DNA of 64,000 nt, from contig NZ_JACFXW010000001.1 in assembly GCF_014158035.1 (NCBI RefSeq), positions 1,054,001-1,118,000 on the forward strand, read 5' to 3'. The DNA comes from Rhizobium sp. G21. GTDB taxonomy: Bacteria; Pseudomonadota; Alphaproteobacteria; Rhizobiales; Rhizobiaceae. Shown piece by piece: positions 14,184-61,054 of the stretch (positions are counted from its first letter, which is position 1; each line of letters begins with the position of its first letter). The translations under genes and the position numbers were made by a program. Below the pieces are notes generated by a model. That model did not search any database and was not told the DNA's origin. It worked only from the letters and a program-made list of their open reading frames with translations.

Positions 14184-14390
14184 TCAGGACACGCGCCGAT
14201 CGGCGCTCAGCCGCCCGTAGATCGCCAACAAACCGCCTGCCGCGCCGGCCAGCGTCGTCAGCGCCTCGACGAGATCATGCTCCATGCCGGGCGCGAGAGG
14301 CGACCCCGCCGCCTGCAAGACACTGGCGAGAATCGCCACCAGCGCTCCCCAGACGGTCTTGGATTGATGCCATGCTTTCGTGTCGTCCAT
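14184..14390 (-). CDS. Holin-like small membrane protein, last gene of the GTA-like set
   Basis: A 68-residue protein with two hydrophobic segments (WGALVAILASVLQAAG and LTTLAGAAGGLLAIYG) separated by an acidic turn, resembling small holin-type proteins found at tail ends of alphaproteobacterial prophages. AAGGA eight bases upstream favours the ATG at 14390 over the one at 14414. It starts 26 bases beyond the g15 stop on the same strand, so it is likely co-transcribed and may help release particles. Holin function is inferred. Confidence 0.55.
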   Translation of the reverse strand: MDDTKAWHQSKTVWGALVAILASVLQAAGSPLAPGMEHDLVEALTTLAGAAGGLLAIYGRLSADRRVS

Positions 14391-14415
14391 GGTGTCGTCC
14401 TTTCCTGGCTCCATG

Positions 14416-17400
14416 TCAGATTGGCAGTGTGGCGTGCGCGGGCAGTCCGGCCGCCACGCGTGCGCCCCTCTGGCGCACGCGGATCGTCAAGGCGGTTTGC
14501 GGCGCGCCGAAATCGGCGATTTCGTCGTCGGCCGCATAGAGGGCCTCGGGATCGTTCACATGCAGGCTGCGGACCACCTCGCCATGCCTGACGATGTCCA
14601 ACCGATAGGCTTCGCGAACCTCGTCGAGCGGAATGTCATCGCCGTCCCAGCCATCGGCGTTGATGCGGCCGCGGCGGATCCATTTGAAGCGAATATCGCC
14701 GTCCGGCTCGCGCCAGCCGCGCAGATGAACCGGCGCGAGCGGCGTCGCCGCCCTTTCGCCGCCGGAGAAGACGTAAGGCCCGACCCGCCCGCCCGCGGCG
14801 CCCGCCGTTTCGGTGATCCAGTTCAGCGTCAAGCCGGCCTCGGTTCCTTTCAGCCCGAGCGATCGGACGGCGTCGTCGAGAAGCACGAATCGAGCGCCGC
14901 TCTCTGCGCCGGCGGCCAAGGCGTCGTCGGTCCCAAACAGACCGCGCAGCAATCCGTGCAGGCGCCAGACATCGGCTTCGATTTCCTCGGCGCTCTGGAA
15001 GGCGATGATCTCCCAGCCGCCATTTCCGGCAGCGATCGCCGCGCGGTTCGCGCCATTCAGAAGCGCAGACCTCGACACGCTTTCCACAGCGCCGGACGTC
15101 ATGCGCACGGTCACCGCATTGGCGTGGTCGATCACCGCCGTCGGACCCGCGCCGAGCGCCGTCGTCAACCGTCCCAGGCTGGCGCGCCGCGACAGCGTCA
15201 ACCGCCCCTCGTAATTGTCTGCGCCCGACGACACGGACATCCGCGTCCGCCGCCAGGGCGACGCCGCCACTGCGGCCATCGCGAAATCCTGGTCTTCGCC
15301 GTCGCCCAGCCTCGGCAGATCCATCAGCGCCACGAGGGGCCGATAGACCGCATTGGCGGCTCCCCCGCGCGGCTGACGCCGCGCCCTCACCGTCGTCGCC
15401 AGGCTCTCGCCGCCGGATCCGGCCTCGCGCGCCGTCACGCGCCTGACATCGCCATCCTCGATGCGGGTGATCAGAAACCGCCCCTCCGGGCCATCGGCCA
15501 GTTCGACGACATCGCCGGGCTCATGCGCGAGCGCCAACGGCGGCAGGCGGAAGCCGATCTGCCGCCGTCCCAGCCGGTGATCCCTCAGCATCGCGTCCAC
15601 CGTGGCTTGCGCCGCCTGTTCATCGAGCGTTCCGGCCAGCGAAATGCTCAGCGCGCGCTGATGGGCGGGCTCGGCCCGCCGGGAACGCACGCTCGCCGGT
15701 TCATGCTCGTTGTCCTCCGCCTGATAGGTGAGGATCGCTTCGGAGGCGTAGTCGCCGTCCTGCCCCAGCGTTTCCGACCACAGCGGCTCGTCCTCGGTCT
15801 CCGCCAGCACGTCGATCACCGCCGCCGGCGCCGAGGCGAGATCCCGCGACCGGAAGGTGAGCCGTCCCGCCGCCTCCGTCACGTCCAGCCGATAGGCGGT
15901 GAGAAGCGGCTCGATCAGCGTCCGGGCCGAACTCTGCTGGCCCATCACATAGCCCTGGAGATTTCCCGAGACGGCTGCGACATCCACCTCGCCGATCTCG
16001 CAATCCCGAGCGATCGCCGCGATCACCGTCGCCAGCGTTCCCGCTCCCAGCCGCCCGTTCAGCCAATGGCCGGTACGCCAGTTTTCTCCATCGGCGAAGA
16101 TATCGGGGTCCTCCGGAAAGCTCGGCGCGGCGCGCGCATCCCAGGTCCAAAGAAACACATGCCCCGGATCGACCATGCCGTCCGGCGCCCCGCTCCCGTT
16201 CCAATGGCTCAGATGCGCATTGAGAAACCGCCGCGGCGTCTCGTCCGACCGGACCCCGCTCGAAAAATACGGTATCTCGGATTCCGACGATTTCGGTCGA
16301 CGAACACATTCGGCTGGTTGCCGCCGCGGTCGATCGCCGGGCAACCGAGCTCGGTGAACCAGATCGGCTTCATCCGCGCCGTCCAGCCGGTTGGCGACGT
16401 CAGTTCCGCTCCGCCCACGCGGTCATGATGCCGGTGCGCCCACCAGTTCTCGATATCCTTGTAGCGGTAGACCCAGGGCTTGCCCGCCAAGCCGTCGCTG
16501 ATCGGGCTGCGGATGCGCGCCGCCCGGTCGGCGCTCGCGTAATACCAGTCATAGCCCTCGCCGCTCTCGATCGCCGCCCGCATCGCCGCCTCGTCGTCGG
16601 CGATCACGGCGCCGTCCGGATGGGCGTGGGTCAAATCCTCGTCCTGAAAATCCGACAGCGGCATGTAATTGTCGATACCGACGGCGTCGATCGCAGGCGA
16701 AGCCCAGAGCGGATCGAGGTGAAAGAGGCGGTCGCCCGTCCCGTCTTGCGGCTGATGGCCGAAATATTCGCTCCAGTCCGCCCCATAGGTCAGCTTGGTC
16801 GAGGGCCCGAGAATGGCCCTGACATCCTCCGCCAGCTCCACGAGCGCCGCCACGAAGGGATAATTCCCCGAGGCATCGCGGATCTGGGTCAGCCCTCGCA
16901 ACTCCGAGCCGATGATGAAACCATCGACCCCGCCCGCCGCCTGCGCCAGCAGGGCATAATGCAGCACCAGCCGCCGATAGCCCTCGTCGGCGCCCTCATG
17001 GCGCACGCTCTCGCCATCGACCTCGAAATCTCCCGCCTCGGCCGCGCCCATGAAGGCCAGCGCCTGCGCCGCACCCTCAGCCGTCCTGTCGGCGCTGTCG
17101 GGCCGGCCGGCCGCCGGATGGCAGGTGATGCGTCCGCGCCAGGGAAAGGCCGCCTGCTCGCCCCAGCCATAGGGGTCCGGCAGACCATTGCCCGGGGAAT
17201 GTCCATCATCAGGAACGGATAGAGATAGACGCCGAGCCCGCGCGCCTTGAGGTCGCGGATCGCCTGGATCACGCTCCGGTCATCGGGCGTGCCGCCATAG
17301 GCGGGCCCCCGAACTCGACGAGATCAGATGCGCCGAGACGCGGTCGCGACCGCAGACCCTCCAGGCGGGATCTTCCTCGTGGCGCACGCGCGTTTCCACG

Positions 17401-18256
17401 CCCGGCCGCACACGGCAATGCCCGGCCCGGAGATCGCTCCCGAACCAGGACACCACCAGCGCCGCCCGTTCGAGATGCGGGCAGAGCGCCTGCAATTCAT
17501 CCAGCGACGCCTCCCAATCGGTGGCTCGTCGCAACTGGTTGCGGTTGATCTTGCGCCCGCGGTCCTCGCCGGTCTTCTCCGTGGCCACCTCCGTCGCATA
17601 ACCGTGTTCGGTCGCGCCGGGAATGATCGTCACCGCCCTGATCCGACTCTCGAGCGGATCGATCACCCGCAACACTTCGAATTGCAGCACCGGAATGCGA
17701 TTGCCGAAGGCGTCGAGCGGCATGCGCTCGAACACCACATAGGCGAGCCCCCGAAAGGCCGGCGCATTCCCGCCCCCTGCTTGGCCTCGATCAGGGGATC
17801 GGGGCCCTGGCCCTCCGTCCCCTCGTAGAAACGGATCTCGTAATCCGTCTGGTCGATCTCCATCCCGTCGGCCCAGATCCTCCTGATGGCGGCGATCGGC
17901 CCCTCCGCGAGACCGACGGCGATATTGGCGAAGTAGCGATAGGTCTCCACCCGCGGCCCCGTCGCCTTGGAGCCCGACCGCTCCTTGCTCACCTCTTCCT
18001 CGAAGCGCGTCGCCCAGATCAACGTGCCGCCGATCCGCATCGTCCCATAGACCCGCGGGATCGCCGTCCCCTCTTCCGCGCCCGCGATCCGCGCATTGGC
18101 GAGCCGGCTGCTCTCGATCGTCGTCAGGCCCGAAATCAGGCTGCGGTCGATCACATTGCCCGCCAAAGCCCCCGCCGCCCGCCCGATGATCGCGCCGACA
18201 GGGCCGAACACTCCGCCGAGCGCCGCGCCGGCGGCCTGCAAAACCAATGTCGCCAT
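14416..18256 (-). CDS. GTA g15 host-specificity/tail tip protein with TIM-barrel domain (four frameshifts)
   Basis: Restored length is about 1,280 residues, close to RcGTA g15. The N-terminus AALGGVFGPVGAIIGRAAGA opens the tail-hub region. The middle part has the GTA TIM-barrel domain (LTYGADWSEYFGHQ, DAVGIDNYMPLSDF, KPIWFTELGCPAID). The C-terminal part is the phage tail_3-like region. Four single-base losses in G/C runs break the frame near 17769-17771, 17306-17310, 17191-17194 and 16294-16296; restoring one base each joins the pieces seamlessly. The uniform lesions suggest sequence error. It is separated from g14 by a block of TA and LysE genes. Confidence 0.88.
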
Positions 18257-18363
18257 GAGATTGTCCTTAAACAGCTAAGGGATCGGACGACGCTGCTCGC
18301 GCGCCGATCGTTCTGACTTTGAGAAGATATGAAGATGAGGGCAAAGAGGCCCGCAACAGGCGC

Positions 18364-18735
18364 TCACTCGGGGCCGAAAGGCCCTTTTAGGGCGCCGACC
18401 AGCGCCTCGACCCCCAGGATCACCGCCGGCAAATCCCGGGTTACGGTGGTCCAGACAAGGTCGAGATTGATGTCGAAATAGCCGTGAACCAATTGATTGC
18501 GCACGCCGCGCATTGCTTTCCATGGCAGGGCTGGATGCAAACCGGCGAAACCAGGATCGACGCGCTGCAACTACACGACAGCCTCGCCCATGACGATCAG
18601 GCTCATCACCACCGCCTGCTGGGTTCTGCGATCACCCCGGAATGCCTCGATGGTCATTCCATCACAAAACCCCACCGCCTTGCGCCCCGCCCGGAGAATA
18701 TGTCCGAGATAGTCGGCGGCGGTTCGATTGGTCAT
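18364..18735 (-). pseudogene. HepT-like toxin (DUF86) with an in-frame amber stop
   Basis: HepT proteins are HEPN ribonuclease-type toxins paired with MNT nucleotidyltransferase antitoxins. The frame starts at an ATG overlapping the MNT stop (ATGA) with MTNRTAADYLGHI and continues to MSLIVMGEAVV, where a TAG (complement of 18571-18573) interrupts it. It then resumes in the same frame with LQRVDPGFA and the catalytic RNQLVHGYF (RX4HxY), ending normally at 18364. A single A-to-T change of a Lys codon explains the stop. Unlike most lesions in this window it is a substitution, so it looks like genuine loss of the toxin. Confidence 0.8.
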
Positions 18736-19160
18736 AAGGGCTCAGCCTCGGCCAGCACCTCTGCCCGTATCGCCGGAGGCAGATCTTGTGGCGTCCTGAG
18801 ATCGACGCCGACGCCCAGCATCTCCTCCAATTCCTGCCGAAGTCCGCCGAGATCGAACAAAGACGCGCCGGGCTCGGCGTCGACGAGAATATCAAGGTCG
18901 CTGTCCGGCCGATCCTGCCCGGTCAGCGCAGAGCCGAACAGACGCGGATTGCTCAAGCGATAGCGCGACACGGCATCCCGGACATCGCCAAGCCGCGCGG
19001 CCAACCGCTCCGACGGCTTCAGGGCCACGGCGTCCGACGCTAGTGCGCTTTCAAGCACCCGCCGCGCTTCGTCCTCGACCGTCCTGCCGCTCCTCTGCGC
19101 CCGCGCCTGCAATTGCTCGAGCGCGGCCGCATCCAGATCTTCGATCGTCACCAGGCCCAT
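18732..19160 (-). CDS. MNT-type nucleotidyltransferase antitoxin with N-terminal RHH-like domain
   Basis: 142 residues from the ATG at 19160 (GGAGG upstream). Residues 1-40 (DLDAAALEQLQARAQRSGRT then EARRVLESAL) look like a FitA/Arc-type ribbon-helix-helix antitoxin. Residues 65-140 carry the minimal nucleotidyltransferase signature GS-X10-DXD (FGSALTGQDRPDSDLDILVD). In the MNT/HepT system the antitoxin AMPylates the HEPN toxin. A fused DNA-binding half would add autorepression. It overlaps hepT by four bases. The fusion is unusual; standalone MNT antitoxins are about 100 residues. Confidence 0.75.
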   Translation of the reverse strand: MGLVTIEDLDAAALEQLQARAQRSGRTVEDEARRVLESALASDAVALKPSERLAARLGDVRDAVSRYRLSNPRLFGSALTGQDRPDSDLDILVDAEPGASLFDLGGLRQELEEMLGVGVDLRTPQDLPPAIRAEVLAEAEPL

Positions 19161-19381
19161 ATCAAGCCTCCAGTTGAGAGACAGTCTAAGCTCCGGTTCG
19201 GAGAACCGCAAGTTCGGCCTAAGTCACCCTCGCTGCAGCGCCCGCGGATGCAACACCAATGACTCTGAGATGAGAGAGAACGGCGGCTCCCGCGCGAGCA
19301 ATCACTACGGTTGCAACCAAGGGAAAAGAACGTCACATTCGCCTCAGCGAAGGTCAGGCGCAGAAGACGACCGCGCCACCC

Positions 19382-19415
19382 TTGACAATCGAGCAAATGT
19401 ACAACTACTTATACA
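19382..19415 (+). promoter_or_regulatory. Candidate promoter/operator of the HigBA-like module
   Basis: TTGACA at 19382-19387 is followed after 18 bases by TACTTA, and an imperfect inverted repeat TGTA-N10-TACA spans 19398-19415, overlapping the -10 region. This AT-rich stretch lies directly before the toxin start at 19425 and would suit repression by the XRE-type antitoxin. It is predicted only. Confidence 0.45.
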
Positions 19416-19424
19416 GGCAATTGA

Positions 19425-19772
19425 ATGCGCAAGCGCATCGTCTGGATGGGATTGTCATTCGACGACATCAGGGAATTCCCCGCCGCCGCCCGACGGCAGG
19501 CGGGCCATGACCTCAACCTTATCCAGGCGGGCCTGCCGCCCATGGACTGGAAAGCGTTTTCCACGGTCGGTCCCGGAGCTTACGAGATCCGCATCAAGTC
19601 AGACGACAACCAGTACCGCGTCTTCTATGTCGCGAAATTCGAAGAGGCGATCTATGTGCTGCATTGTTTCGTCAAGAAGAGCCGGAAGACCGCTGCCTTC
19701 GATGTCGAGATCGGCCAGCAGCGCTACAAGGCAATGAAAAAGCTGAGAGAACAGATGAAGGAAGGCGCATGA
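19425..19772 (+). CDS. HigB/Gp49-like RelE-superfamily toxin
   Basis: A 115-residue protein of the phage-derived Gp49-like HigB family: IVWMGLSFDDIREFPAAARR, GLPPMDWKAFSTVGPG, YEIRIKSDDNQYRVFYVAKF and YVLHCFVKKSRKTA are the family blocks. Such toxins cleave mRNA at the ribosome. The first ATG gives the family-typical N-terminus. It is followed by an XRE antitoxin gene with ATGA overlap, the reversed toxin-first order of higBA. It is one of several TA modules inside the GTA-like locus and is read on the opposite strand. Confidence 0.9.
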   Translation: MRKRIVWMGLSFDDIREFPAAARRQAGHDLNLIQAGLPPMDWKAFSTVGPGAYEIRIKSDDNQYRVFYVAKFEEAIYVLHCFVKKSRKTAAFDVEIGQQRYKAMKKLREQMKEGA

Positions 19773-20137
19773 CGACAGTTCACGACATCGGCCATGTCAC
19801 GCCGGAGAACGCCAACATCTTCGCGGAACTCGGTTTCGCCGCGGATGAAGCCGAACGGCTTCAGACGGACTCGGAAGCCCGCATCACCGCCGCCATCGCC
19901 ATCAAGAAAAGCCTGATGGCGGAAATCGCCGCCTGGATTCGCGACGGCCGGCTGAAACAGGCCGAAGCCGCCGAACGCCTCAACGTCTCCCGCCCGCGCG
20001 TCTCCGACGTCGTCAATATGAAAGTGTCTAAATTCACCATCGACACCCTGATCGACATGGCCCAGCGCATCGGGAAAACGGTCGAGGTGACGGTCAGAAA
20101 CTCCGAGACTGCGGAGCGCGTCGCAGGGGCGCGATGA
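19769..20137 (+). CDS. HigA-like XRE-family antitoxin
   Basis: A 122-residue protein whose C-terminal half has a helix-turn-helix (RLKQAEAAERLNVSRPRVSD), followed by the dimerisation strand TVEVTVRN. It should neutralise the preceding toxin and repress the operon. The start overlaps the toxin stop by four bases (ATGA). A longer frame from 19664 lies within the toxin gene and is not used. Confidence 0.9.
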   Translation: MTTVHDIGHVTPENANIFAELGFAADEAERLQTDSEARITAAIAIKKSLMAEIAAWIRDGRLKQAEAAERLNVSRPRVSDVVNMKVSKFTIDTLIDMAQRIGKTVEVTVRNSETAERVAGAR

Positions 20138-20143
20138 GCACGC

Positions 20144-20770
20144 TCACCCCCGCTGCAGCGCCAGATTGACGCCTAGCCCGCACAGCACAGTCCCGCCCGC
20201 GCGCCGCATCAGCTTCTGCGCGCCGCTCGACCGCTTCAGCCGCTCGGTCACCAGCCCCGCGAAGAGCACGCAGACAATGTCGGCCGACGTGAAGATCAGG
20301 TTCACCGCGCTGCCGAGGATCGCCAGTTGCAGCCAGACGGGGAAGCCTGCGCCGGCGTCGACGAATTGCGGCAGGAAGGCGAGAAAGAAGATCGCCGTCT
20401 TCGGGTTCAGCACCTCCACCAGCATGCTCTCGATGAGCGCCGCCCGGCCGCTTGTCATCGCGCCCGCTTCCGCCGCCGGCTGATCCTTCGCCACGATCAT
20501 CCGAAAGCCGAGCCAGACGAGATAGGCCGCGCCCGCCAGCTTCACGACGAGGTAAAGCGCCGGCACCGCATGAAACAGGATCGACAGCCCGGCGGCTGCC
20601 GCAAACACATGCGCATAGCAGCCGAGATGAATGCCGAGCGCCGCCATCAGCCCCGCCTTTCGCCCCCGCGCCAGCGTCTGCCCCGCCGCATAAAGCATCG
20701 CCGGCCCCGGCACATAGGCGAAGACGAAGGTGGTCGCGAAGAAGGCGGCGAGCAGGGACAAAGACGGCAT
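20144..20770 (-). CDS. LysE/RhtB-family amino acid exporter
   Basis: A 208-residue inner-membrane protein with five or six hydrophobic segments and the family's N-terminal pattern (FVFAYVPGPAMLYAAGQTLARGRKAG) and LNPKTAIFFLAFLPQF. LysE-type carriers export amino acids or their analogues; the substrate cannot be predicted. It converges with the HigBA-like pair and lies between TA modules in the g14/g15 gap. Confidence 0.85.
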   Translation of the reverse strand: MPSLSLLAAFFATTFVFAYVPGPAMLYAAGQTLARGRKAGLMAALGIHLGCYAHVFAAAAGLSILFHAVPALYLVVKLAGAAYLVWLGFRMIVAKDQPAAEAGAMTSGRAALIESMLVEVLNPKTAIFFLAFLPQFVDAGAGFPVWLQLAILGSAVNLIFTSADIVCVLFAGLVTERLKRSSGAQKLMRRAGGTVLCGLGVNLALQRG

Positions 20771-20885
20771 GAGCGCTCCGGGACTCTTCTGCCGGACCTC
20801 ACGAGACGGAACAGCCGGCCCCGCCCCGTCACGGCCACCTGATCACGCGGCGGAGGTGTTGTCAAAACTCCGCCTGCGGAAGCAT

Positions 20886-21310
20886 TTACACGTCCCGCCA
20901 AGGGTTGACGACCTCAACGCCCGTCAGATCGAAATCCTTCGTGTTGCGCGGGTCACGATCGTCGCGCCTACCGAAAGGGCGATCGCAGCGATTTGCCCAT
21001 CGAATTGCGACATCGTCCTCCCTTGCGACCGCCTGTCCGCCATGATCGATGCAAAGCGTTCAGCCGCGGGCGCGTCGAACGGCAGTATCCTGCCCAGAAA
21101 CGCGTCGTGCAACAACAGGCCGATCTCGCGCTCCAGAAGCATGCGCCGCCGACCTTCGGGTAGAAGCTTCACCCCATAGAGAATCTCAGCGACCGTCACA
21201 GCCGAAATATACTGACTGCGAGCCGGATGCGACGCGACCCATGCGAGAACGCCTGGATCGGGCTTGATCGACACGAGGTCCGAGATGACATTCGTGTCGA
21301 GGAAAAACAT
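20886..21310 (-). CDS. FitB/VapC-like PIN-domain toxin (one frameshift near the end)
   Basis: A PIN-domain ribonuclease: MFFLDTNVISDL with the first catalytic Asp, SAVTVAEILYGV with Glu, and MSQFDGQIAAIA with the second Asp, then VTR. The frame breaks near 20946-20952; adding one base restores NTKDFDLTGVEVVNPW and a stop at 20886. Total length is then about 141 residues, normal for FitB. The start overlaps the FitA-like antitoxin stop (TGATG). Both genes of this pair carry a frameshift, so functional status is uncertain. Confidence 0.8.
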
Positions 21311-21565
21311 CAGCTCGGCGTCACCCGCTCGGCCATGGCCGCGCGATCTGGGAGAGCGAGATCTTCTCCGCCGAACCGGGCCACCTTGTCACGAATGAAG
21401 GCAGCGAGATTGTCAGTCTTGGGCGTCGCGGCGCGCTCCGTATCGAGCGCGGCTTCGAAGCACCGCCTTTGCTTCATCGGCGAGCGTGCGGCCGTTTTCT
21501 CGCGCGCGTTCTTCCAGCGCCGCCTCCGCGTCCTTGTCCAAACCGTCGATCGTAATCAGGCCCAT
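21310..21565 (-). CDS. FitA-like RHH antitoxin (one frameshift)
   Basis: Starts MGLITIDGLDKDAEAALEER, then ARENGRTLADEAKAVL, a classical FitA ribbon-helix-helix antitoxin N-terminus that binds the operon promoter. Near 21456-21461 one extra base shifts the frame. Removing it gives EAALDTERAATPKTDNLAAF and a C-terminal toxin-binding tail ending at 21310. About 84 residues when restored. It is followed immediately by the PIN-domain toxin. Confidence 0.75.
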
Positions 21566-21621
21566 CGCAAGCCCCCGTGCTGAAACGGCAGTCTACCGCC
21601 GCCACCGGGCTCCCGCAACAC

Positions 21622-22056
21622 TCAAAACCGGAACACGCCCGCGATCCGCCGCCGCCAGGCCGGCGCGAGCGGGCTTTCCACCACGCCGGTCTGCTCACAG
21701 GCGTGAATGAAGCGGTCTGCGCCGGAGACGATGCCGAGATGCTGGGCGGCCATGCCCCGCCTGAGCCGGAACACCAGCACGTCCCCCATCCGCAGCGTGG
21801 CCTCGGCGCAGGCCGGGCCGAAATGACGGGTCGCGGCCTGCAGCAGACGCTCCTCGCCCGATCGCTCCGCCCAGTCGCGGCCATAGGGGCCGGGCTCCTC
21901 GGGCTCTTGGCCCCGCATTTCACGCCAGACGCCGCGGATCAGGCCGAGGCAATCGCAGCCGATCCGGCTGAAACCCTGATGCCGATAGGGCGCGCCGATC
22001 CATGTCCGCGCGATCGCCGCCGCCCGCTCGCCCGCGCTGTCGTCGGCCTCAGTCAT
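21622..22056 (-). CDS. GTA g14 cell-wall peptidase (NlpC/P60)
   Basis: About 144 residues with the NlpC/P60 catalytic pattern: Cys in IGCDCLGLIRGVWRE, His in GMAAQHLGIVSG, and a further polar residue in FIHACE. In RcGTA this tail peptidase opens peptidoglycan during DNA entry. The ATG at 22056 overlaps the g13 stop by eight bases. Order g12-g13-g14 is as in RcGTA; the next structural gene, g15, is displaced by TA genes. Confidence 0.92.
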   Translation of the reverse strand: MTEADDSAGERAAAIARTWIGAPYRHQGFSRIGCDCLGLIRGVWREMRGQEPEEPGPYGRDWAERSGEERLLQAATRHFGPACAEATLRMGDVLVFRLRRGMAAQHLGIVSGADRFIHACEQTGVVESPLAPAWRRRIAGVFRF

Positions 22057-22930
22057 AGAGCGGCCGTCCGTCATGCTCGGTCTCCCCGTCGGCGTAGGAA
22101 TAGGCGAAATCCGCGCCCGGCATATGCGGAAATCCTCTGAAGTTCAGCGCATTGCCGAAGCGGTCGCGGCAGGTCTCGAACCGCTTGTCGCAGCCTTCGA
22201 GCAGGCTCACCGCGTCGCCGGGCTCGGGAGGCGCCGCTATCGGCTGCCAGAGCGCGAGCCGCATCCGCCCGTCTCTCCGCTGCGCCCCGTCGACATCGAC
22301 CGCCAGCCCCGCAAGCGCTCCGCTTTCCACCGTCATCACCCCGCCCGCGAGCCGGGCCGGCGCGGCGCCGCCAAGGCCCTCCACCGTCACGCTCGATCGA
22401 TCGGCGGAAATCACCACGCCCGCATGCCGAAATGCGCTGGCCGCAAGCCCGCATCGGGCGTCGCAAAAGCCCGCGTCGCAGCGATGGCCATAGACGCGCC
22501 CCTGCACCTGACCGAGGCGGTGCGAAAGCCCCCGCAATTCCGCCCTGAAGTCGCTCTCGCTCCTCGCCACCTCGCCGATCTCGTAGCGCCTGAGCCGCAT
22601 ATGCTGCGCCGGCGCCTGCCAGTTGACGAGATAGAGGTCCACCGTCGCGCCGTCATAGCGGCCCGCCGCGATATCCTCTGCGCTGATGACGTCCGACGAC
22701 AGCGCCCCGAGCGTCTCGGAGGATGCCGCCGCCAGCCCGCTCTCGCTCTCGTCGTCGCCCGCCGCAAAGCCGCTCGCGGCGAGAAAGGTCACGCCCGCAA
22801 ATGTCAGATCATGGTCGTGATCGGTGAAGCCCAGCGCCACGCCATCCCGGCGAGTCACCTTCCAGGCATTGGCGAGCGTCGTCGCCTCGCCGGCGATATG
22901 GGTTGCAAGCGCCTCCGGAATGCGCCTCAT
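22049..22930 (-). CDS. GTA g13 tail hub protein (DUF2163)
   Basis: A 293-residue DUF2163 protein with the diagnostic beginning (TTLANAWKVTRRDGVALGFT-DHDHDL) and the cysteine-containing segments GHRCDAGFCDARCG and EGCDKRFETCRDRFGN, which in RcGTA relatives are linked to an iron-sulfur-binding hub. It belongs to the tail baseplate. It overlaps g12 and g14. Confidence 0.93.
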   Translation of the reverse strand: MRRIPEALATHIAGEATTLANAWKVTRRDGVALGFTDHDHDLTFAGVTFLAASGFAAGDDESESGLAAASSETLGALSSDVISAEDIAAGRYDGATVDLYLVNWQAPAQHMRLRRYEIGEVARSESDFRAELRGLSHRLGQVQGRVYGHRCDAGFCDARCGLAASAFRHAGVVISADRSSVTVEGLGGAAPARLAGGVMTVESGALAGLAVDVDGAQRRDGRMRLALWQPIAAPPEPGDAVSLLEGCDKRFETCRDRFGNALNFRGFPHMPGADFAYSYADGETEHDGRPLYD

Positions 22931-29107: not shown

Positions 29108-29108
29108 G

Positions 29109-44515: not shown

Positions 44516-44527
44516 TTATGATCGTCT

Positions 44528-46958: not shown

Positions 46959-47183
46959 CGCGCCGAGCTCTGTCGTCTGCGGCGATATTACCACACCTCC
47001 GTTAGAAACTTCTGATTTATCTCAAACGATGTTACCGGCGCGGAAAGCTTTTCTGCGCCCCAGCCGCCGGCCGGCGGAGCGAAATCGCCGCCGGCGTCCG
47101 TCGGGCGGCGCCCGCTGCGGAACCTAACGCTCATCCTGCCGTTTGTGATGTTGACCACCCACACGCACTGAAGAGGCGCCATC

Positions 47184-50021: not shown

Positions 50022-50030
50022 GTCTGTCAC

Positions 50031-52207: not shown

Positions 52208-52372
52208 GCGTGAAATCCTCCTCGGAGCCCGAAGTCCAGACCTTGTGCCCGAGCGCGCCGCCCCTCGCAAGCGCCGCGTCGCGGAGAGAGAGGCGATCGC
52301 AAGTTCCGCCCGTCGCCCGGCGGTCGCGTCGAAGGCCCCTCGCCGCTCGTCGGTTCCTGCCCTTTTTCGACG

Positions 52373-52732: not shown

Positions 52733-52749
52733 CGAGCAGGATACTCCAG

Positions 52750-52793
52750 GTTACCAGGTAACGTACAGGTGCGTAATTGCATTCACGTATAAT
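52750..52793. promoter_or_regulatory. Operator palindrome and -10 element between hxlR and nmrA-like genes
   Basis: GTTACC-A-GGTAAC at 52750-52762 is a perfect palindrome 18 bases upstream of the hxlR start. A consensus -10 box TATAAT lies at 52788-52793 on the plus strand, inside a second inverted repeat GTATA-N5-TATAC. This is the layout expected for HxlR repression of the divergent gene. Confidence 0.6.
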
Positions 52794-52834
52794 ATGTATA
52801 CCTAACTCGTCTCTCATCAACAAGGAGACGCAAA

Positions 52835-53787
52835 ATGCCCATCCAGGCGCATGACATCGACAGGGAGCACTCGCCCCGCAAGACCATACTCGTGTTCGGA
52901 GCGACCGGACAACAAGGGGCGCCGTCGCCTCGGCGCTGGGCCGAACCGGCTGGACGGTTCGGGCTCTCGTCCGCGATCCCGAAAGCGCGAAAGCGAAGGT
53001 CCTGGCGTCCCTCGGGGTCGAAGTCGTGCGTGGCGACCTCTCCGACAGCGCATCGATCAGATCGGCGATGTCCGGCGTCTACGGCGTCTTCAGCGTTCAA
53101 CCGAGTTCCGGGCAGGGAGAAGTCTACGGCGTCACCGACGAGCAGGAGGTGCGCTACGGGACGACGATCGCCGATATCGCGGCTGAGTGCGGCGTCGAGC
53201 ACCTCGTCTATACGTCGGTCAATGCCGCCGGCCCCGAAAAGACCGGCATGGGGCATTTCGACAGCAAATCGGAGATCGAGGCCCATATCCGCAAGCTCGA
53301 CCTCAAGAGCACGATCATCCGTCCGGCCGGCTTCATGGAACTGTTGATGCTGCCCGGAATGGGGCTCGACAAGGGATATTTCCTATCCTTCGTGCGCCCG
53401 GATCAGACAGCGCAGGTGATCGCAGTCCAGGACATCGGCAGGATCGTCGCCGGGATTTTCCAGAACCCGGATCGCTTCGTCGGCGAGACCATCGAGATCG
53501 CCGGCGACGAAATCACCGGGCAGCGTCTGCAGGACAGCTTGAGCCGCGCAGCCGGCAAACCGATCGCCTATAGCCGTTTCCCCGACAGCCTGTTGCGACA
53601 GAACAGTTTTCTCGATCGTCTCGCCGAACTGTTCGATGACGGACGACTTGCCGGACATGCCGACATCCCCCGCCTCGAGCAAGACTTCGGAAAGTTCCTC
53701 AGCTTCGACGAATGGTTAGCGGGGCCCGGCAAACCGCTTTTCGAGGCGGCCCTGGTCGCAGAAAACGCGCCCATCGCCCTTCGTTGA
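52835..53787 (+). CDS. NmrA-like NAD(P)-binding protein (one frameshift)
   Basis: About 317 residues when restored. The Rossmann motif LVFGATGQQG-GAVASALGRTGW is broken by one missing G at 52916-52919. The rest is intact: VEVVRGDLSDSASIRSAMSG, HLVYTSVNAAGPEKTGMGHF, STIIRPAGFMELLM and DIGRIVAGIF. NmrA-like proteins bind NAD(P) and act as redox sensors or quinone/isoflavone reductases. Divergent from hxlR. Confidence 0.88.
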
Positions 53788-53837
53788 TCCGCGCGACGGC
53801 GGCGCTCCCGCGCTGCCGTCCTTAAATACGCGATGTT

Positions 53838-53866
53838 GACGTGGCGGACGCAGGGTCCGCCACGTC
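53838..53866. terminator. Bidirectional hairpin between convergent nmrA-like and GST genes
   Basis: GACGTGGCGGAC, loop GCAGG, GTCCGCCACGTC: a perfect 12 bp stem midway between two convergent genes. There is no strong T run on either side, but position and stability suggest a shared terminator. Confidence 0.65.
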
Positions 53867-53897
53867 GTTCATCGAGAAGGTTCACGACGCCGGATGC

Positions 53898-54569
53898 TCA
53901 CAGCGTCACGCCGACGCTCGACAGGAAGCTGTCCATGCGGCGATCGACCTCGCGCTTGGTTTCGGCCCAGGCGGGAAACGACTGCAGAAGGTTGTCGTGC
54001 CACGCCATGAGATTGGGAAACTCCCGAAAGGGAGGCCTCGACCGGTCGATCTGCGAAAACGGACCGGCGATGTCGATATCGGCGAGGGTCAGGGTCTCTC
54101 CGACAATGAATGTGCGGCGCTCCAGGCGCTGGTCGAGCACTTTCGCCGCCGCGCGGAGCTTGCTCTCGGCGAAGTCGATCACGGGCTCGCTTTTCGGCAT
54201 GCCCGTGACCGTCTTGCCCACGCTCTCGTCGAACAGCGCCGTCGCAAAGACGCGCCACTGCTCCGCCGACCAGAACATCCATTGCAGAACCTGAAAACGC
54301 TCCTCCGCATTGGCTCCGGCCAAGGGCGAGTTCGTCTTGTCCGCCAGATACAGGTTGATCGCCGCCGCTTCGTAGAGAATGACGTCGCCGTCCTCCAGAA
54401 CCGGCGTCAGGCCATGCGGGTTGAGGCGTGACTTGAACGCGTCGGTCCGGCTTTCGCCCTTGAAAAGATCGACCATGACATGTTCGAGCTCGATACCCAT
54501 TATTTTCGCCGCCGTGGTCACGCGGCGCAAGCTGCCCGAGCCCGGATCGCCATAAATCTTCATCGTCAT
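53898..54569 (-). CDS. Glutathione S-transferase
   Basis: A 223-residue GST: thioredoxin-like N-terminal domain (MKIYGDPGSGSLRRVTTAAK, LNPHGLTPVLEDGDVILYEA) and all-helical C-terminal domain (RRTFIVGETLTLADIDIAGP, the conserved N-capping Asp). It conjugates or reduces electrophiles with glutathione. GGAAGAG precedes the ATG at 54569. A LysR gene diverges upstream. Confidence 0.93.
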   Translation of the reverse strand: MTMKIYGDPGSGSLRRVTTAAKIMGIELEHVMVDLFKGESRTDAFKSRLNPHGLTPVLEDGDVILYEAAAINLYLADKTNSPLAGANAEERFQVLQWMFWSAEQWRVFATALFDESVGKTVTGMPKSEPVIDFAESKLRAAAKVLDQRLERRTFIVGETLTLADIDIAGPFSQIDRSRPPFREFPNLMAWHDNLLQSFPAWAETKREVDRRMDSFLSSVGVTL

Positions 54570-54746
54570 ATCTCTTCCTCTCGGCTTGAGGACCGCTGCG
54601 GCCCAACGCAGGAAGCCTTTTCATATTCTCTTGAGGAATTGAATTGACGGTAAAGGCATAGACTCTATTCGAAATCGGCATAGATATGGACCAGCCGCGG
54701 CGCGACGTCAGGTTTGAGCCGCGCCCGTTCGACGGAGAAAGCGAAT

Positions 54747-55650
54747 ATGGACAGACTGGACGCAATGCGGGCGTTCGCGCGCGTCGTCGAGACCGGGAGC
54801 TTTTCACAGGCCGCGCGCGACCTGAGTGTGAGCCAACCAACGGTCAGCAAGCAGCTCGCGGCGCTCGAAGCGCGGCTGGGCGCCCAGCTGCTGACGAGAA
54901 GTTCGCGCGCGCTCACCGTCACGCTGGCCGGACAGGAATATTACGAAGCCGCGATCCGCATTCTCGAGGATATCCAGACCGTGGAGGAAAAACTGCTCGA
55001 AGGGCAGTCGTCGCCGTCGGGTCTCGTGCGGATAACCCTCGCTCCCGCCTTCGGCAGGATGTATGTCATACCAAAGCTTCCCGTCTTCAAAGAGCGCTTT
55101 CCGGACGTCTCGATCGACATCGAAGTCTCCGGCCGTCACGTCGATCTCGTCGAAGAGGGGATCGATATCGCCATCCGCATCGGTCACCTCTCGGACTCCG
55201 CTCTGCTGGCCCGGCGGATTGGCGATATGCGCATGATCACCGGGCGTCCGCCGACTATCTAGCCAGGCGCGGCGCGCCGCGAACGCTGGACGATCTGCAG
55301 GGCCACGAGCGGATCGGCTACGTCCATCAGGGCCACACGATCGGCTGGAATTTCACGGTCGAGGGCAAGGAGATCACCCTGGAAGGCGGCTGCGCCTTCC
55401 GCACCAACGATGCCGAACATGTCCGGGGCGCCGTGCTGGCCGGTCTCGGCATCGCCCATCACGCGAGCTGGCTGTTTCCGGATGTGCTCGCCTCCGGGGA
55501 AGTGGCGCGCGTTCTCGACGATTACGCCCCGCCCCTTCTTCCGATCAACGCGATCATCGCCGGGGGCGCCGCATGCCGTCTCGGGTGCGGCGTTTCATCG
55601 ATTTCCTCGCCGACATCTGCGCCGCGGAGCCCGAGTTGCGCATCGGATAG
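54747..55650 (+). CDS. LysR-family regulator divergent from GST (two frameshifts)
   Basis: About 301 residues when restored. HTH (DRLDAMRAFARVVETGSFSQ, SVSQPTVSKQLAALEARLGA) and effector domain (DVSIDIEVSGRHVDLVEEGI). One base is missing near 55240-55250, after which DYLARRGAPRTLDDLQGHER continues, and one near 55562-55568, after which RVRRFIDFLADICAAEPELR runs to the stop. It probably regulates the adjacent GST gene. Confidence 0.85.
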
Positions 55651-55687
55651 CCACCTCACAGCGCCGACGACGACCGACGGCGCAGAC

Positions 55688-55894
55688 CGCCCCCTTCACG
55701 CCAAGCTCCCCCTCGCCGCCTCCTCCACCCGATAATCCGCCGCGATCCGCATCTCCCGAAGCGGCCGAACGATCTCGATCGAGCGCTGATAATTCGGATG
55801 CGCCTTATAGGCCGCGAGCTGGGCCTCGTCTTCGAATTCGCCATAGACGACCAGGTCCGCTTCGCCGCCCAGCTGGTCGGTCGTCAAATTGGTC
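55688..55894. repeat. Direct repeat, left copy (part of a duplicated Dabb gene)
   Basis: About 207 bases nearly identical to 56499-56704, starting CGCCCCCTTCACGCCAAGC. It covers the C-terminal two thirds of the Dabb gene plus its 3' flank. Confidence 0.85.
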
Positions 55895-55929
55895 GCGGAC
55901 GGAGAAGAACAAACGATAGGACGGATCAC
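55696..55929 (-). pseudogene. Truncated duplicate of the Dabb-domain gene
   Basis: It encodes the same C-terminal part as the intact gene at 56506-56817 (TDQLGGEADLVVYGEFEDEA, YQRSIEIVRPLREMRIAADY), but about 80 bases of the N-terminal half are deleted. The residual 5' end (to 55929) has a GTG in place of the ATG and is out of frame. It is a decayed copy. Confidence 0.8.
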
Positions 55930-56011
55930 GCGAGCCTCCGCCGATGCTGGCTGGCCGCCATTGGCCCAAAGCAGACTTTCACTTCGAAGAACGCGACGCG
56001 GCGGTCTTGCT

Positions 56012-56410: not shown

Positions 56411-56498
56411 GGTTCACTTCCATCCAATTGGGGCAATGTTACCGTTCTGCGCCAAATCGAACAACCCGACCAATGTCTCCTCTTGGCGCAAAGCAACC

Positions 56499-56704
56499 CG
56501 CCCCCTCACGCCAAGCTCCCCCTCGCCGCCTCCTCCACCCGATAATCCACCGCGATCCTCAACTCCCTCAGCGGCCGAACGATCTCGATCGAGCGCTGAT
56601 AATTCGGATGCGCCTTATAGGCCGCGAGCTGGGCCTCGTCTTCGAATTCGCCATAGACGACCAGGTCCGCCTCGCCGCCCAGCTGGTCGGTCTTCAGGTT
56701 GGTC
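56499..56704. repeat. Direct repeat, right copy (within the intact Dabb gene)
   Basis: Partner of 55688-55894. A handful of substitutions distinguish them, such as CTCAACTCCCTCAGC here against GCATCTCCCGAAGC. Confidence 0.85.
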
Positions 56705-56817
56705 CCGATCTCGAGCAGGATCTTGTCGGGGATCTCGGTCAGGATGGAGAGACCGGCCTTGATGCGGTCGAGATCGGCCCTGTCGCGGGCGGAGAAGAAG
56801 ACGATATGGCGGATCAT
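56506..56817 (-). CDS. Dabb (stress-responsive alpha/beta barrel) domain protein
   Basis: A 103-residue ferredoxin-like dimeric barrel protein: IRHIVFFSARDRADLDRIKA, IPDKILLEIGTNLKTDQLGG, DLVVYGEFEDEAQLAAYKAH, then YQRSIEIVRPLRELRI. Such proteins are induced by stress or act as small-molecule-binding monooxygenase-like domains; the role here is unknown. A partial second copy lies 0.8 kb away. Confidence 0.85.
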   Translation of the reverse strand: MIRHIVFFSARDRADLDRIKAGLSILTEIPDKILLEIGTNLKTDQLGGEADLVVYGEFEDEAQLAAYKAHPNYQRSIEIVRPLRELRIAVDYRVEEAARGSLA

Positions 56818-56877: not shown

Positions 56878-57490
56878 TCACTTGTACGACAGCGCCTTAT
56901 AGAACGCCCGCCCATGCCCGGCCAGCCGGTCGGCGCTTTCCAGCCCGTTGATGATGCGCCGCGCGCCGGCCCAGTCGTCGCTGTCGCCGTCGAAGAACTC
57001 CTTGAGCTTGCGCGTCGTGAACAGCCCCTCGATCATGCCGGCGATGATGATCTTCACGGCGATCTCCGGGTCGAGCGCCCGGTCGGGATCGGTGACGAGA
57101 TCGACGCCGAGCCGCTCGCCGAGCGCCGCGTAATTGCGCTTGTGGGTGAGCTGCACCAGCCCGCGGCCATACCAGCTCTTGCCGTCCGCGTCCCTGCGCC
57201 AATAGGGCGTCTTCACCCAGGGCAGTTTGCCGGCGTTCCAGGCGGTTTCCAGCCGCCTGATCGCCTGGTCGTCGGTGTTCGCCAGCGTCTCGCGCACCGC
57301 CTGCAGCGTGTGGGCGCTTTCGTGATAGGCGGTGGCGAGGATATAGGCCAGCCAGCGGTCGTCCTCCTCAGCATGCCCCCTCCCAGGCGTCGAGGATCGC
57401 CTCGGCCCCGTCGACCTGGCTCTGTCTCAGCCCGTTCGGAAACAGGCTTTCGCGGATGATCTCAAAAAAGAACGCCCTGTTGATGCTCAT
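56878..57490 (-). CDS. Glycoside hydrolase family 19-type lysozyme/endolysin (one frameshift)
   Basis: About 204 residues when restored: SINRAFFFEIIRESLFPNGL, then after the G5 run at 57376-57380 (net +1 or -2) DDRWLAYILATAYHESAHTL with the catalytic Glu, and KSWYGRGLVQLTHKRNYAAL, a GH19 hallmark. GGAGC precedes the ATG at 57490. Phage endolysins of this type release particles by cutting peptidoglycan. It lies 1.1 kb downstream of terminase on the same strand, so it may serve as the lysis gene of the GTA-like locus. Confidence 0.82.
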
Positions 57491-57591
57491 GGTGTGTTGC
57501 TCCTGTGTCGCGAGTGTTTTCGAACCGCTCGGGTGTGCATTGCTATCCGTCGCTCGCTGTGACGCTGCCGCTCGAGCCCGACCATGAGCAT

Positions 57592-57621
57592 AAAAAACCG
57601 GCTCGCATGAGCGCGAGCCGG
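57592..57621 (-). terminator. Intrinsic terminator of the lipoprotein gene
   Basis: On the minus strand CCGGCTCGC-GCTCAT-GCGAGCCGG followed by T6: a 9 bp GC-rich stem located 34 bases past the stop of the lipoprotein gene and about 100 bases before the lysozyme start. Confidence 0.85.
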
Positions 57622-58605: not shown

Positions 58606-59883
58606 CTACACGCCCCTCACCCTCGGCTCGCCCGCCCCCGTCAGCATCAGCGCCGTCAGCGCCCAGACCAGCGCGTCGAGCCGGTCGGGAGAGGCGCCGT
58701 TCGACAGGCCGTCGGGGCCGAAATCGCACATCTGGTCTTCGAGCGCCGGAAAGGCGCCGGCATGGGCGACGCGGCCCTGCTCGTAAAGCGCGGCTGCGGG
58801 TTCGGCGCGGGCCCGTTTGCCGCGCCGGGCCGAGACGGTGGAGATAGGCAGATTGGCGTCGGCGGCGCGTAAGACCGCCGTCACCATGTCGCCGCCCTGG
58901 TTGATCTCGGCGATCACCCGGTCGGCCTGGAAACGTCGATAGGCGCGGACGACGGCGTCAGCCCAGCGGGCCGGCGAGGCCTGCGCCACCGAGCAATCGG
59001 CCAGCACCACCGCGCGGCCATCCTCGCCGAAGCCGGCGACGACGACGCCGCAGCAGCTGTCTCGGGCGTTTTCCGACGCCGGCGGATCGACCGCCACGAC
59101 GATGCGCCGCATTGGCCCCGGCGCGCGGATGCGGCTCCGTTCGATCAGCGAGCGGCTCCACAGCGCATCGTCGCGATCCTCGATCATCTCGCCGTCGAGT
59201 TCCTGCCGGCCCAGCCGCGTGCCGCCATAGCGCTGTTCGAGCGCGGCGATGAAGCCCGGCGCGAGATTGTCGGCATTGTCGCGCGTCGAAAGCCGGGTCA
59301 GGACCGCGCCGGGCTCGGCGATCAGCCGCTTCAGAAGCGGCGTCGTCCGCGGCGTCGTCGTCGCCGCCTGGCGCGGATGCGGCCCCAGCCGGAGGCCGAA
59401 TTGCAGCATGTCCCAGGTTTCCTCGGCATGTTTCCATTTGCCGATCTCGTCGGCCCAGGCATAGTCGAATTGCGGCCCGCGCAGGCTTTCGGGATCTTCG
59501 GAGGAGAAGAGCTGCGCCGTCGAGCCGTTCGGCCAGACCAGCCGCCGTCGGCTCACCTCGAAGGACGGCCTGTCGACCCGGGCGATGCGCCAGATGCCGG
59601 AGACGCCATCCACCATCACCTCGCGGGCGTCGCCCAGCGTCTCGCCGATCAGGGCGATCCGCACCGGGCTTTCGCCGGTGGCCAGCGCCTGCACCCATTC
59701 GGCCCCGGCCCGGGTCTTGCCCGAGCCGCGCCCGCCGAGGATCAGCCAGCTCCGCCAGTCGCCCTTGGGCGGCCGCTGGTCGCGCCTCAGCGCATGCCGC
59801 GCTTCGAGCCGGAGCAGCGCCGGAACCGGCAGAGCGGTAAGGCCTTGGGCGGTCAGCGGCGGCAAGGCGAAGTGTTCGGCCAT
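58606..59883 (-). CDS. GTA g2 terminase large subunit
   Basis: 425 residues: ATPase domain with Walker A GGRGSGKT (residues 50-57), WADEIGKWKHAEETWDML (Walker B region), TTPRTTPLLKRLI (coupling motif), and a nuclease domain with VVAVDPPASENARDSCCGVV, ADRVIAEINQGGDMV and SPDRLDALVWALT. It packages DNA into the head. The ATG at 59883 is chosen; the upstream in-frame extension looks like the end of the preceding gene in a shifted frame. Confidence 0.93.
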   Translation of the reverse strand: MAEHFALPPLTAQGLTALPVPALLRLEARHALRRDQRPPKGDWRSWLILGGRGSGKTRAGAEWVQALATGESPVRIALIGETLGDAREVMVDGVSGIWRIARVDRPSFEVSRRRLVWPNGSTAQLFSSEDPESLRGPQFDYAWADEIGKWKHAEETWDMLQFGLRLGPHPRQAATTTPRTTPLLKRLIAEPGAVLTRLSTRDNADNLAPGFIAALEQRYGGTRLGRQELDGEMIEDRDDALWSRSLIERSRIRAPGPMRRIVVAVDPPASENARDSCCGVVVAGFGEDGRAVVLADCSVAQASPARWADAVVRAYRRFQADRVIAEINQGGDMVTAVLRAADANLPISTVSARRGKRARAEPAAALYEQGRVAHAGAFPALEDQMCDFGPDGLSNGASPDRLDALVWALTALMLTGAGEPRVRGV

Positions 59884-60412
59884 GCTCTGGTCACCCTCAC
59901 GGCCATCACTCTCAGGAGCCCGGGAGGCGCAAGTCTCGCTTGCCCTGTCGGAAGCCCGATCCGACGCCGTATCCGCATCAGCGCCGGCGTCAGTCCCGGC
60001 CTGCGCCAGACCTCCCTCAACCGCGCCGTCGCCCTGTCGCGCGCCCGGATGCGGCTCGGGGCCAGCGTCTGCCGCGACCGGACATCCGGCATTCACCTCC
60101 GCATCGGCGCCGCTCGTCGCCATCGCGCCAGCGGCGCCAGCGCCATCCGCCGCCTGCGAAACCGCCGCCGGGACCGATCCGTCCCGGGCCGATCCGCCTG
60201 CAGCCTCTCGCAGCCCTTGCACAACATCCCGAAAGCGATTCCGAGATGCGTGCAGACCCTTCGCCGCCATCAGCTCGTCTTTCACCCGTTCAAGCGCCTT
60301 CGCATTGTCATCGAGCGCTCGGCCGGCCTCTGCGTCGATCGCTTCATTTTTCTGCCGCAGCGTCCGCTGTGAGGCCCCCGGTCCAACCGTCCGTGATGGT
60401 CCCGACCCGGCG
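59884..60412 (-). other. Probable C-terminal continuation of the g1-like gene in a shifted frame
   Basis: In the terminase frame, sequence upstream of 59883 reads like protein (TLRQKNEAIDAEAGRALDDN, AKALERVKDELMAAKGLHAS, FRDVVQGLREAAGG) and then becomes Ala/Asp/Ser-rich. It is probably the C-terminal part of the g1-like protein, joined across a frameshift near 60413-60440 and ending in another frame just before terminase. Confidence 0.45.
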
Positions 60413-61054
60413 TCATGCCAATCGCGCCGCCTCGACCGGCGCCGCAGCCCATGGCCCGCCGTCGCCGGGCGACGCCGCCGCGCCGTCTGGCTCCCCGGAT
60501 CGTCCACACATGTCGGGGCCGGCGGTTTCCCGGGGCCGCAGAGAATCTTCAGCTATCCCCGCACTCTCAGGCCCATCCCGCGCCTCGCCCGGCTCACGCC
60601 GCTCGCGCATTTCCACCGCCAGTTCCCGGGCGCGGGCCTCGATCAGCCGCTCCACCCGCGCGGCCAGCGCCTTGTGCGCCTCGGCGCCGAAACTGGCCTC
60701 CTCGCGCGCCGCCCGTTCTTCGGCGAGCGCCCGCTGCAGGCTGTCGAGCTTTTCGATGGTGCGGACAATCTGCTGGATCGCCTCGCTCGCCGCCTTGGCG
60801 TCGGCCTTGGCGGTCTTGTGGTCCTCGCCCTCGGTCTCCATCAGCTGCTGCGCGCGGGCCCGCATGGCGCGAAACATCTTCAGCTCCTCGCCGAGTTCGG
60901 TGACGATCTCGGAGAGCATCCGCGCGAGCTCCCGCCCCTCCTCCCCAGCCGCCTTGATCTCCGGCGCCATCTCCGGCTCCCGGTCGCCCAAAAGCGCCCG
61001 CCCGATCAGCAGCTCCGCCGCGACATCCTCGAGGTTATCCAGATCGTCGGTCAT
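60413..61054 (-). CDS. GTA g1-like protein upstream of terminase (possible small terminase)
   Basis: In-frame part of 213 residues from the ATG at 61054: DDLDNLEDVAAELLIGRALL, EEGRELARMLSEIVTELGEE, a long charged coiled coil (EKLDSLQRALAEERAAREEA, LIEARARELAVEMRERREPG), then a low-complexity tail. Position directly before the large terminase matches RcGTA g1 (TerS). Sequence similarity to known TerS is not evident to me. The frame probably continues after a frameshift near its present end. Confidence 0.5.
   Translation of the reverse strand: MTDDLDNLEDVAAELLIGRALLGDREPEMAPEIKAAGEEGRELARMLSEIVTELGEELKMFRAMRARAQQLMETEGEDHKTAKADAKAASEAIQQIVRTIEKLDSLQRALAEERAAREEASFGAEAHKALAARVERLIEARARELAVEMRERREPGEARDGPESAGIAEDSLRPRETAGPDMCGRSGEPDGAAASPGDGGPWAAAPVEAARLA

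Follow-up and report, generated by a model that had tools for sequence, protein, structure and literature searches.

Among the closest described gene transfer agents (GTAs), RcGTA of Rhodobacter capsulatus has a head-tail gene cluster of about 14 kb (PMC9836097). In Caulobacter, the DnaA-domain-like GafY and its partner GafZ activate the GTA promoter, and GafZ, bound between the -35 and -10 elements, enables RNA polymerase to read past terminators (PMC11150451, PMC9632790). No likeness of GafZ to known anti-terminators is reported in either sequence or predicted structure (PMC11150451). Work on Rhizobiales covers GTA losses in nodulating lineages (PMC7363004) and phage relatives of the GTA (PMC11409702), and it is still debated why bacteria retain GTAs whose production kills the cell (PMC11841831). 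Here, we analyze an RcGTA-type cluster in a 64,000-nucleotide stretch of Rhizobium sp. G21 (C1:1054001-1118000, hereafter the window; the genome comprises 5.45 Mb in 5 contigs and is 86% complete). In contrast to RcGTA, genes g1 to g15 are spread over 47 kb by seven intervening blocks. We propose that this is, on balance, probably a retained cluster under purifying selection that has been opened mostly at module borders and is read through by anti-termination.

An earlier sequence-only reading of the window had proposed a complete set from a g1-like gene to g15, on the minus strand and in standard order, with gene blocks at g2/g3, g3/g3.5, g3.5/g4, g4/g5, g8/g9, g11/g12, and g14/g15 that cut no structural gene. 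Pfam matches and tblastn homologues bear this out (Table 1), and the order, strand, and blocks are confirmed. The blocks, in the order just given, measure 18.0, 4.9, 0.5, about 2.1, 2.1, about 1.2, and 3.4 kb, and cargo interrupts none of the structural genes. The gene calls come from a codon-bias caller written for this analysis; g1 and g11 lack a Pfam match and were assigned from their position together with tblastn homologues in relatives. A resident prophage that is not a GTA would also be expected to carry phage-type genes for structure and lysis. We find this reading highly improbable, as the GTA-specific families GTA_TIM, Rcc01698_C, and GTA-gp10 are all found by Pfam in the cluster, its neighbors are common to the closest relatives and part of the other relatives, GafY/GafZ-like regulators are encoded in the genome, and no integrase or replication gene was seen among the window proteins scanned, a subset of all open reading frames (ORFs).

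Among named relatives, those with the most similar capsid (99% identity), Rhizobium sp. FKL33 and SG_E_25_P2, are referred to here as the sisters. SG_E_25_P2 carries the same gene order on one contig over ~37 kb, with long pieces ~88-94% identical to the window at the nucleotide level and a g2/g3 block of 9 kb. FKL33 has the same order over two contigs, with the break at the site of the insertion sequence (IS) of the window. Alignment with relatives, suggested as a check in the sequence-only reading, shows a shared order and inserts that differ at g2/g3 and g4/g5, among other junctions. An 86% complete genome with indels could in principle contain a misassembled or chimeric contig; the independent SG_E_25_P2 contig refutes this for the gene order, and we regard misassembly as extremely improbable.

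In this assembly, g5, g12, and g15 each fall in more than one frame, and an IS element occupies g4/g5, as would be expected of a decaying, inactivated GTA remnant that gathers inserts neutrally. We reject this explanation, which appears very unlikely, on the basis of the intact sisters and low ratios of nonsynonymous to synonymous substitution rates (dN/dS). Both sisters have g5 (419 residues), g12, and g15 (1282 residues) in single intact frames, and in our assembly flanking genes are frameshifted likewise, among them one for a penicillin-binding protein and ccmF, for which FKL33 was the only comparison. Gene lengths hint at scattered indels throughout the genome, and a coarse comparison agrees with this in part: per 160 kb of random regions, we count 59 small ORFs here and 29 in the sister and a median gene length of 186 versus 279 residues, though both genomes have 16.2 genes of at least 400 residues per 100 kb. 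Estimates of dN/dS, also suggested beforehand, indicate purifying selection: genes tested whole range from 0.02 (capsid) to 0.47 (the gene at the g3.5 position), with 0.32-0.42 for g1, 0.12-0.15 for g2, 0.10-0.11 for g3, and 0.02 for the C-terminal frame of g5. Ratios are low even in the broken-frame pieces: measured piece by piece, g12, g15, and the N-terminal part of the capsid give 0.04-0.31. Cargo also cuts no gene in the window, in contrast to three other genomes with long spans, described below.

The sequence-only reading would have been undermined by a compact cluster elsewhere in the genome, with the genes described here as a decaying second copy. We found no such cluster. The only two GTA_TIM matches in the genome are both pieces of the window g15, and the second portal and capsid genes (C1, ~92-96 kb; L003, L004) lie inside an ordinary siphovirus-like prophage at ~76-114 kb. 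The labels siphovirus-like, Mu-like, and resolvase were assigned by eye from ORFs throughout. Separately, synonymous divergence (dS) from the sisters is higher for g13-g15 (0.36-0.76; window 14416-22930) than for g1-g11 (0.08-0.31), a contrast that suggests recombination within the cluster.

We compared the spacing of GTA genes in the best 80 of 302 capsid-related loci, a nonrandom sample that includes both sisters and in which contig ends shorten some loci, so that every count out of 80 is a minimum. A junction was considered open when the spacing exceeded 600 bp. By this measure, g2/g3 is open in 67 of 70 loci, g8/g9 in 44 of 69, and g3/g3.5 in 40 of 75; less often open are g3.5/g4 (6/76), g11/g12 (6/64), g10.1/g11 (3/66), g14/g15 (2/59), g4/g5 (1/78), and g13/g14 (1/63). 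Seven of the sixteen junctions, namely, g1/g2, g5/g6, g6/g7, g7/g8, g9/g10, g10/g10.1, and g12/g13, never exceed this spacing. Open junctions are therefore common in Rhizobiaceae, mostly at module borders, and the junctions open across the family are those used in the window. The premise that known clusters of this type are compact single operons fails for this family, in which g2/g3, g3/g3.5, and g8/g9 are commonly open.

Across 38 genomes with both genes on one contig, the span from terL to GTA_TIM ranges from 11.6 to 60.7 kb with a median of 13.4 kb, compared to 43.6 kb in the window. The 10-kb flanks excluded 8 of 61 full-flank loci from the span count. Seven spans exceed 20 kb, and in three of these inserted DNA splits a GTA gene (the portal gene in G030 and G055 and g15 in G040). 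In G030, the portal gene is split by a ~48-kb Mu-like prophage (C4 2188673-2238483; L127-L130). In G010, portal matches miss ~86 residues beside a phage-like block. Expansion without a split or shortened gene is seen only in G051 and in the window clade with its two members. The window clade is the extreme of a family-wide openness, and we consider the case special mainly for this contrast with the cut or shortened GTA genes of other long-span genomes.

Partial copies of GTA gene ends were sought, for genes other than g12 and g15, in the 80 loci, 16 contig sets, and the window. None occurs in the window. Duplicated 3' ends stand at the far edge of the insert in SG_E_25_P2 (g3; L090, contig 121404-121613), G010 (g2; C12 106149-106280), and G051 (g4; C13 359612-359842) and are possibly a trace of how inserts arrive. 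The other matches were due to genes that are split or belong to phages, apart from a short match within g10 in L035.

A single conserved promoter element, which we term P_GTA, precedes g1. Its 58- to 61-base consensus, ATAGGAAAATAATCCTTGACGGCGTnACGGTngTTTGrTAGGGTT..GGCAyAGTCGgAnA, is found in 60 of the 65 loci with g1 at no more than 9 mismatches in 28 positions, and in 52 loci at no more than 7. Conservation is ~0.90 over the promoter, including a -35/-10 spacer that is near-invariant in 59 loci, versus 0.35 further upstream. The window copy scores 49.7 with a position weight matrix, compared with a maximum of -49 on both strands of 16 random 20-kb stretches, and the genome contains one match at up to 3 mismatches. 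By this matrix, there is no other copy in the 80 loci; the sole extra match, in L053, also lies ~220 bp before g1. In the window and the sisters, internal modules have no copy of their own.

A pattern derived from this element yields 29 sites in 27 of 61 genomes and none with reversed-pattern controls. Twenty-six of these sites lie 0.5-1.8 kb upstream of a GTA terL match on the same strand. Of the remaining three, one precedes g3 in G051 and two are P_GTA-like matches in G036 (C24:234744 and C1:223613) with no recognized GTA gene beside them. G051 (L137) has copies at C13 347476 and 354755, the latter with a 5-kb insert on one side and g3 on the other; the site before g2 is the weaker in this genome. 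Of the 34 genomes with no pattern match at this stringency, three were scored by matrix: G030 and G005 have weaker sites, and G040, the genome with the split g15, has none. An integration host factor (IHF) consensus occurs upstream of P_GTA in only 7 of 59 loci.

Terminator-like hairpins also occur in these clusters. Using a strict rule, we detect a leader terminator before g1 in 27 of 60 loci, versus 4.4 in shuffled sequences and 1 on the reverse strand. A terminator-like hairpin of varying sequence precedes g9 in 24 of 71 loci, versus 0.6 and 0, respectively. The g9 hairpin lies, by eye, ~20-25 bases before the start codon, which in these loci leaves no room for a promoter between it and g9.

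The genome further encodes candidate regulators. A GafY-like gene matching Bac_DnaA_C (E 1.4e-12; DnaA-domain-IV-like) adjoins a DUF6456 gene (E 1.8e-43) ~105 kb from the cluster. We take DUF6456 to be the probable GafZ; Caulobacter is the sole positive among 14 control genomes. Of the 61 genomes, 47 have both DUF6456 and GTA_TIM, 2 have only GTA_TIM, 4 have only DUF6456, and 8 have neither; all 4 genomes with only DUF6456 contain a GTA-type terL match. This co-occurrence is significant (Fisher P 6.6e-6, with no correction for relatedness).

The terminators in the leaders and the GafY/GafZ-like genes suggest read-through, and with one conserved promoter and terminator, all of the cluster may continue to be transcribed together. 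RNA polymerase recruited by GafY would start at P_GTA, GafZ would load at the invariant -35/-10 spacer, and the polymerase would then ignore terminators, giving a roughly 46-kb late-phage-like transcript that crosses cargo on either strand. Because such a modified polymerase would read the whole unit, inserts between genes would be tolerated, and inserts inside genes would not. The openings fall mostly at the borders between terminase, portal, protease-capsid-head completion, tail tube-tape measure, and baseplate-fiber modules and are filled by toxin-antitoxin (TA) modules and metabolic and regulatory cargo. The suggestion that the locus is an island-like site collecting cargo between selected particle genes is supported by these results. 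For its counterpart, a loss of joint transcription, we have as yet found no support: the GTA genes keep to one strand, with a single P_GTA before g1 and no internal copies in the window or sisters.

Several observations weigh against read-through. The strict rule detects no terminator in the leaders of 33 of 60 loci, and the window has none directly before g9; an energy-based rule (41/60 real versus 25/60 shuffled, 6 reverse) was too loose, and the strict count was used. The identification of DUF6456 as GafZ relies on the Caulobacter control match and adjacency to the DnaA-domain gene, and the statistic for its co-occurrence with GTA_TIM ignores relatedness. The MFS transporter gene at g8/g9, present in 45 of the 80 loci, opposes the GTA strand in all 45, so collisions are expected. 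The second P_GTA of G051 suggests that read-through of the 5-kb insert is insufficient there. Finally, each module could have its own promoter; transcription would then not be joint, and inserts would be tolerated for that reason. The opposed MFS genes, the second G051 copy, and a conserved motif between g8 and g9 (TAGCA...AAGTGACA, 18 loci) would fit such module-specific promoters. We nevertheless regard them as unlikely given the strand kept throughout, the lack of P_GTA-like copies before internal modules in the window or sisters, and the lack of room between terminator and g9 start in many loci. The g8/g9 motif was rejected as a common module promoter because it is found only at that junction. 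A sigma-70 scan for internal promoters of another type gave none above chance, and such scans are weak.

The TA modules offer a further explanation for retention, in which they punish loss of a costly locus and so hold cargo and GTA together as a stabilized island. The window contains five TA-like modules, four of them co-directional with the GTA genes. ParD and ParE recur at g3/g3.5 in 33 and 32 of the 80 loci, always in the GTA direction; GNAT/TacA, at g8/g9 in 10 of 80 loci, keeps to this direction as well. Of eight TA queries, one or more gave a match within the cluster in 37 of 80 loci and in 25 of the 54 loci with both g2 and g15; the other 43 of 80 loci matched none. As background, 160 kb of sister DNA has three TA-type families among the first 25 of 30 listed, the same length of this genome has none among the first 25 of 56, and the flank genes have two among the first 25 of 49; comparison with these listed families did not establish enrichment in the cluster. 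Stabilization is a tentative possibility, though a rather doubtful one, and it is compatible with anti-termination, not exclusive of it. A combined model of a domesticated viral locus, in which processive anti-termination lets one promoter express the structural genes across 46 kb of foreign cargo, makes the cluster an insertion-tolerant safe harbor, and places it under the guard of co-directional, co-transcribed TA modules against its deletion, seems to us quite unlikely as a whole.

The endolysin portion of g2/g3 is a standard cluster resident, not cargo: 69 of 80 loci have the gene on the same strand, and all but one of these 69 have it at g2/g3 (68 loci). A 212-bp direct repeat (55686-55897 and 56496-56707, 94% identical) carries parts of the neighboring Dabb gene. 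The variable g2/g3 cargo encodes an FkbM methyltransferase, flavodoxin-like reductases, LysR regulators, GGDEF-EAL, catalase, PhzF, HxlR, NmrA, and GST proteins; window 41882-55679 has no match in SG_E_25_P2, and FKL33 has a relative of the GGDEF-EAL gene. The g3/g3.5 block also holds a 2OG-Fe oxygenase. Its STAND-like gene is of interest because a 2026 paper describes an NLR-like system that controls GTA lysis in Caulobacter (PMC13236601), yet it is absent from both sisters, which have other genes at that place, and from the 80 loci; PADLOC returned only weak SIR2 matches for it. At g4/g5, the IS is absent from SG_E_25_P2, which has an HTH ORF similar to the HTH/RelE-type pair of FKL33 (the scan for this pair covered FKL33 only). 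Short dispersed repeats, presumably RIME-like, flank the IS (31068-31365 and 32615-32896) and recur upstream of g1 (61293-61331). Within g14/g15, the Gp49/HTH_37 pair is HigBA-like and on the plus strand. Between g3.5 and g4, FKL33 encodes a 1079-residue RTX/cadherin-like repeat protein (L094:1751-4990, minus strand).

Table 1. Features of the window, in order along the minus strand (positions are those of the window)
Feature	Position	Strand	Evidence and remarks
P_GTA	61161-61221	-	-35 CTTGAC (61207), near-invariant spacer, -10 TAGGGT, conserved downstream bases
Leader hairpin and U-tract before g1	61067-61101	-	Intrinsic-terminator-like
g1-like, small terminase position	60413-61054	-	No Pfam match; tblastn homologues in 65/80 loci
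g2 TerL	58606-59883	-	PF03237/PF17289; open frame to 60507
Hairpin before endolysin	57590-57621	-	Terminator-like
GH19-type endolysin, g2/g3	56878-57490	-	PF00182; two frames in assembly
Dabb-domain gene adjoining endolysin	56506-56817	-	PF07876; 36/80 loci
Variable g2/g3 cargo	40937-55972		~15 kb, metabolic and regulatory; genes named in text
g3 portal	39405-40640	-	PF04860, E 6.4e-80
SIR2/NB-ARC/TPR (STAND-like) gene, g3/g3.5	36096-39194	+	Pfam; beside portal
g3.5-position gene, DUF6107	34141-34515	-	PF19602; named by position
g4 prohead protease	33056-33598	-	PF04586
IS element with inverted ends, g4/g5	31330-32650	-	DDE_Tnp_1/DUF4372 transposase 31363-32460
Hairpin and U-tract directly before capsid start	31009-31036	-	Similar in L009, L010, L011, L075, L083
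g5 capsid	29750-30995	-	PF05065; frameshift near 30740 in assembly
g6	29109-29693	-	Pfam; g6-g8 (28368-29693) connector and head-tail completion, uninterrupted: PF05135, PF05521, PF11367
g7	28772-29107	-	Pfam
g8	28368-28775	-	Pfam
GNAT toxin and TacA-type antitoxin, g8/g9	27590-28326	-	10/80 loci, same junction and strand
MFS transporter, g8/g9	26362-27548	+	Pfam on cluster representative and homology; frameshifted in assembly
g9 tail tube	25855-26265	-	g9-g10.1 set: PF06199, PF11836, PF09550
g10, GTA-gp10 family	25457-25858	-	Pfam; g10/g10.1 labeled chaperones
g10.1 TAC	25272-25457	-	Pfam
g11, tape measure position	24746-25279	-	No Pfam match
PemK/MazF-type toxin and upstream antitoxin-like frame (by eye), g11/g12	23979-24528	-	PF02452, E 4.4e-20
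g12 DUF2460	22927-about 23563	-	PF09343; two frameshifts in assembly
g13 baseplate hub	22049-22930	-	PF09931/PF09356
g14 NlpC/P60 peptidase	21622-22074	-	PF00877
g14/g15 block	18364-21583		VapC-like PIN and antitoxin-like frame, LysE-like (by eye), Gp49/HTH_37, MNT/HepT
g15 GTA_TIM, Phage-tail_3, Rcc01698_C	14416-18256	-	Several frames in assembly
Small gene 3' of g15, holin-like by eye	14184-14390	-	No Pfam match; same place in 13/80 loci

These results bear on how GTAs are found and why they are kept. Particle genes that remain under selection while their cluster triples in length argue for a real benefit or guarded retention. P_GTA, which occurs in several families of the order, finds GTA clusters by their regulation, predicts which of them can be switched on, and allows anti-termination to be tested in bacteria other than Caulobacter. 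In a literature search with most subscription journals outside it, neither this promoter element nor a leader terminator in a Rhizobiales GTA nor TA modules inside GTA clusters came up. Detection rules based on spacing would lose g2 from clusters such as this one. With the GTA-Hunter limit of 8 kb between adjacent genes (PMC6821227), the 18-kb g2/g3 gap excludes the window g2 and g3-g15 pass; this limit is a practical detection rule, not a biological definition.

The window cluster shares the g1-g15 set, order, strand, and GTA-specific domains with the RcGTA head-tail cluster and RcGTA-like clusters of other Alphaproteobacteria and differs from RcGTA in having an endolysin and a holin-like gene in or next to it. 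Like CcGTA (PMC11150451), it has separate gafY- and gafZ-like genes, a promoter element ahead of its first gene with conserved bases from -35 to -10, and a terminator-like hairpin near the start of the unit. The CcGTA terminators are three 150-bp repeats after gtaT, whereas the window has its terminator-like hairpin in the leader before g1, and its conserved spacer differs from the Caulobacter palindrome (PMC11150451). Read-through, described for CcGTA (PMC11150451), is proposed for the window. The arrangement of one promoter, an early terminator, and a long structural-gene unit is also that of lambda Q-type late units, but unlike these, the window cluster is host-domesticated and contains foreign genes.

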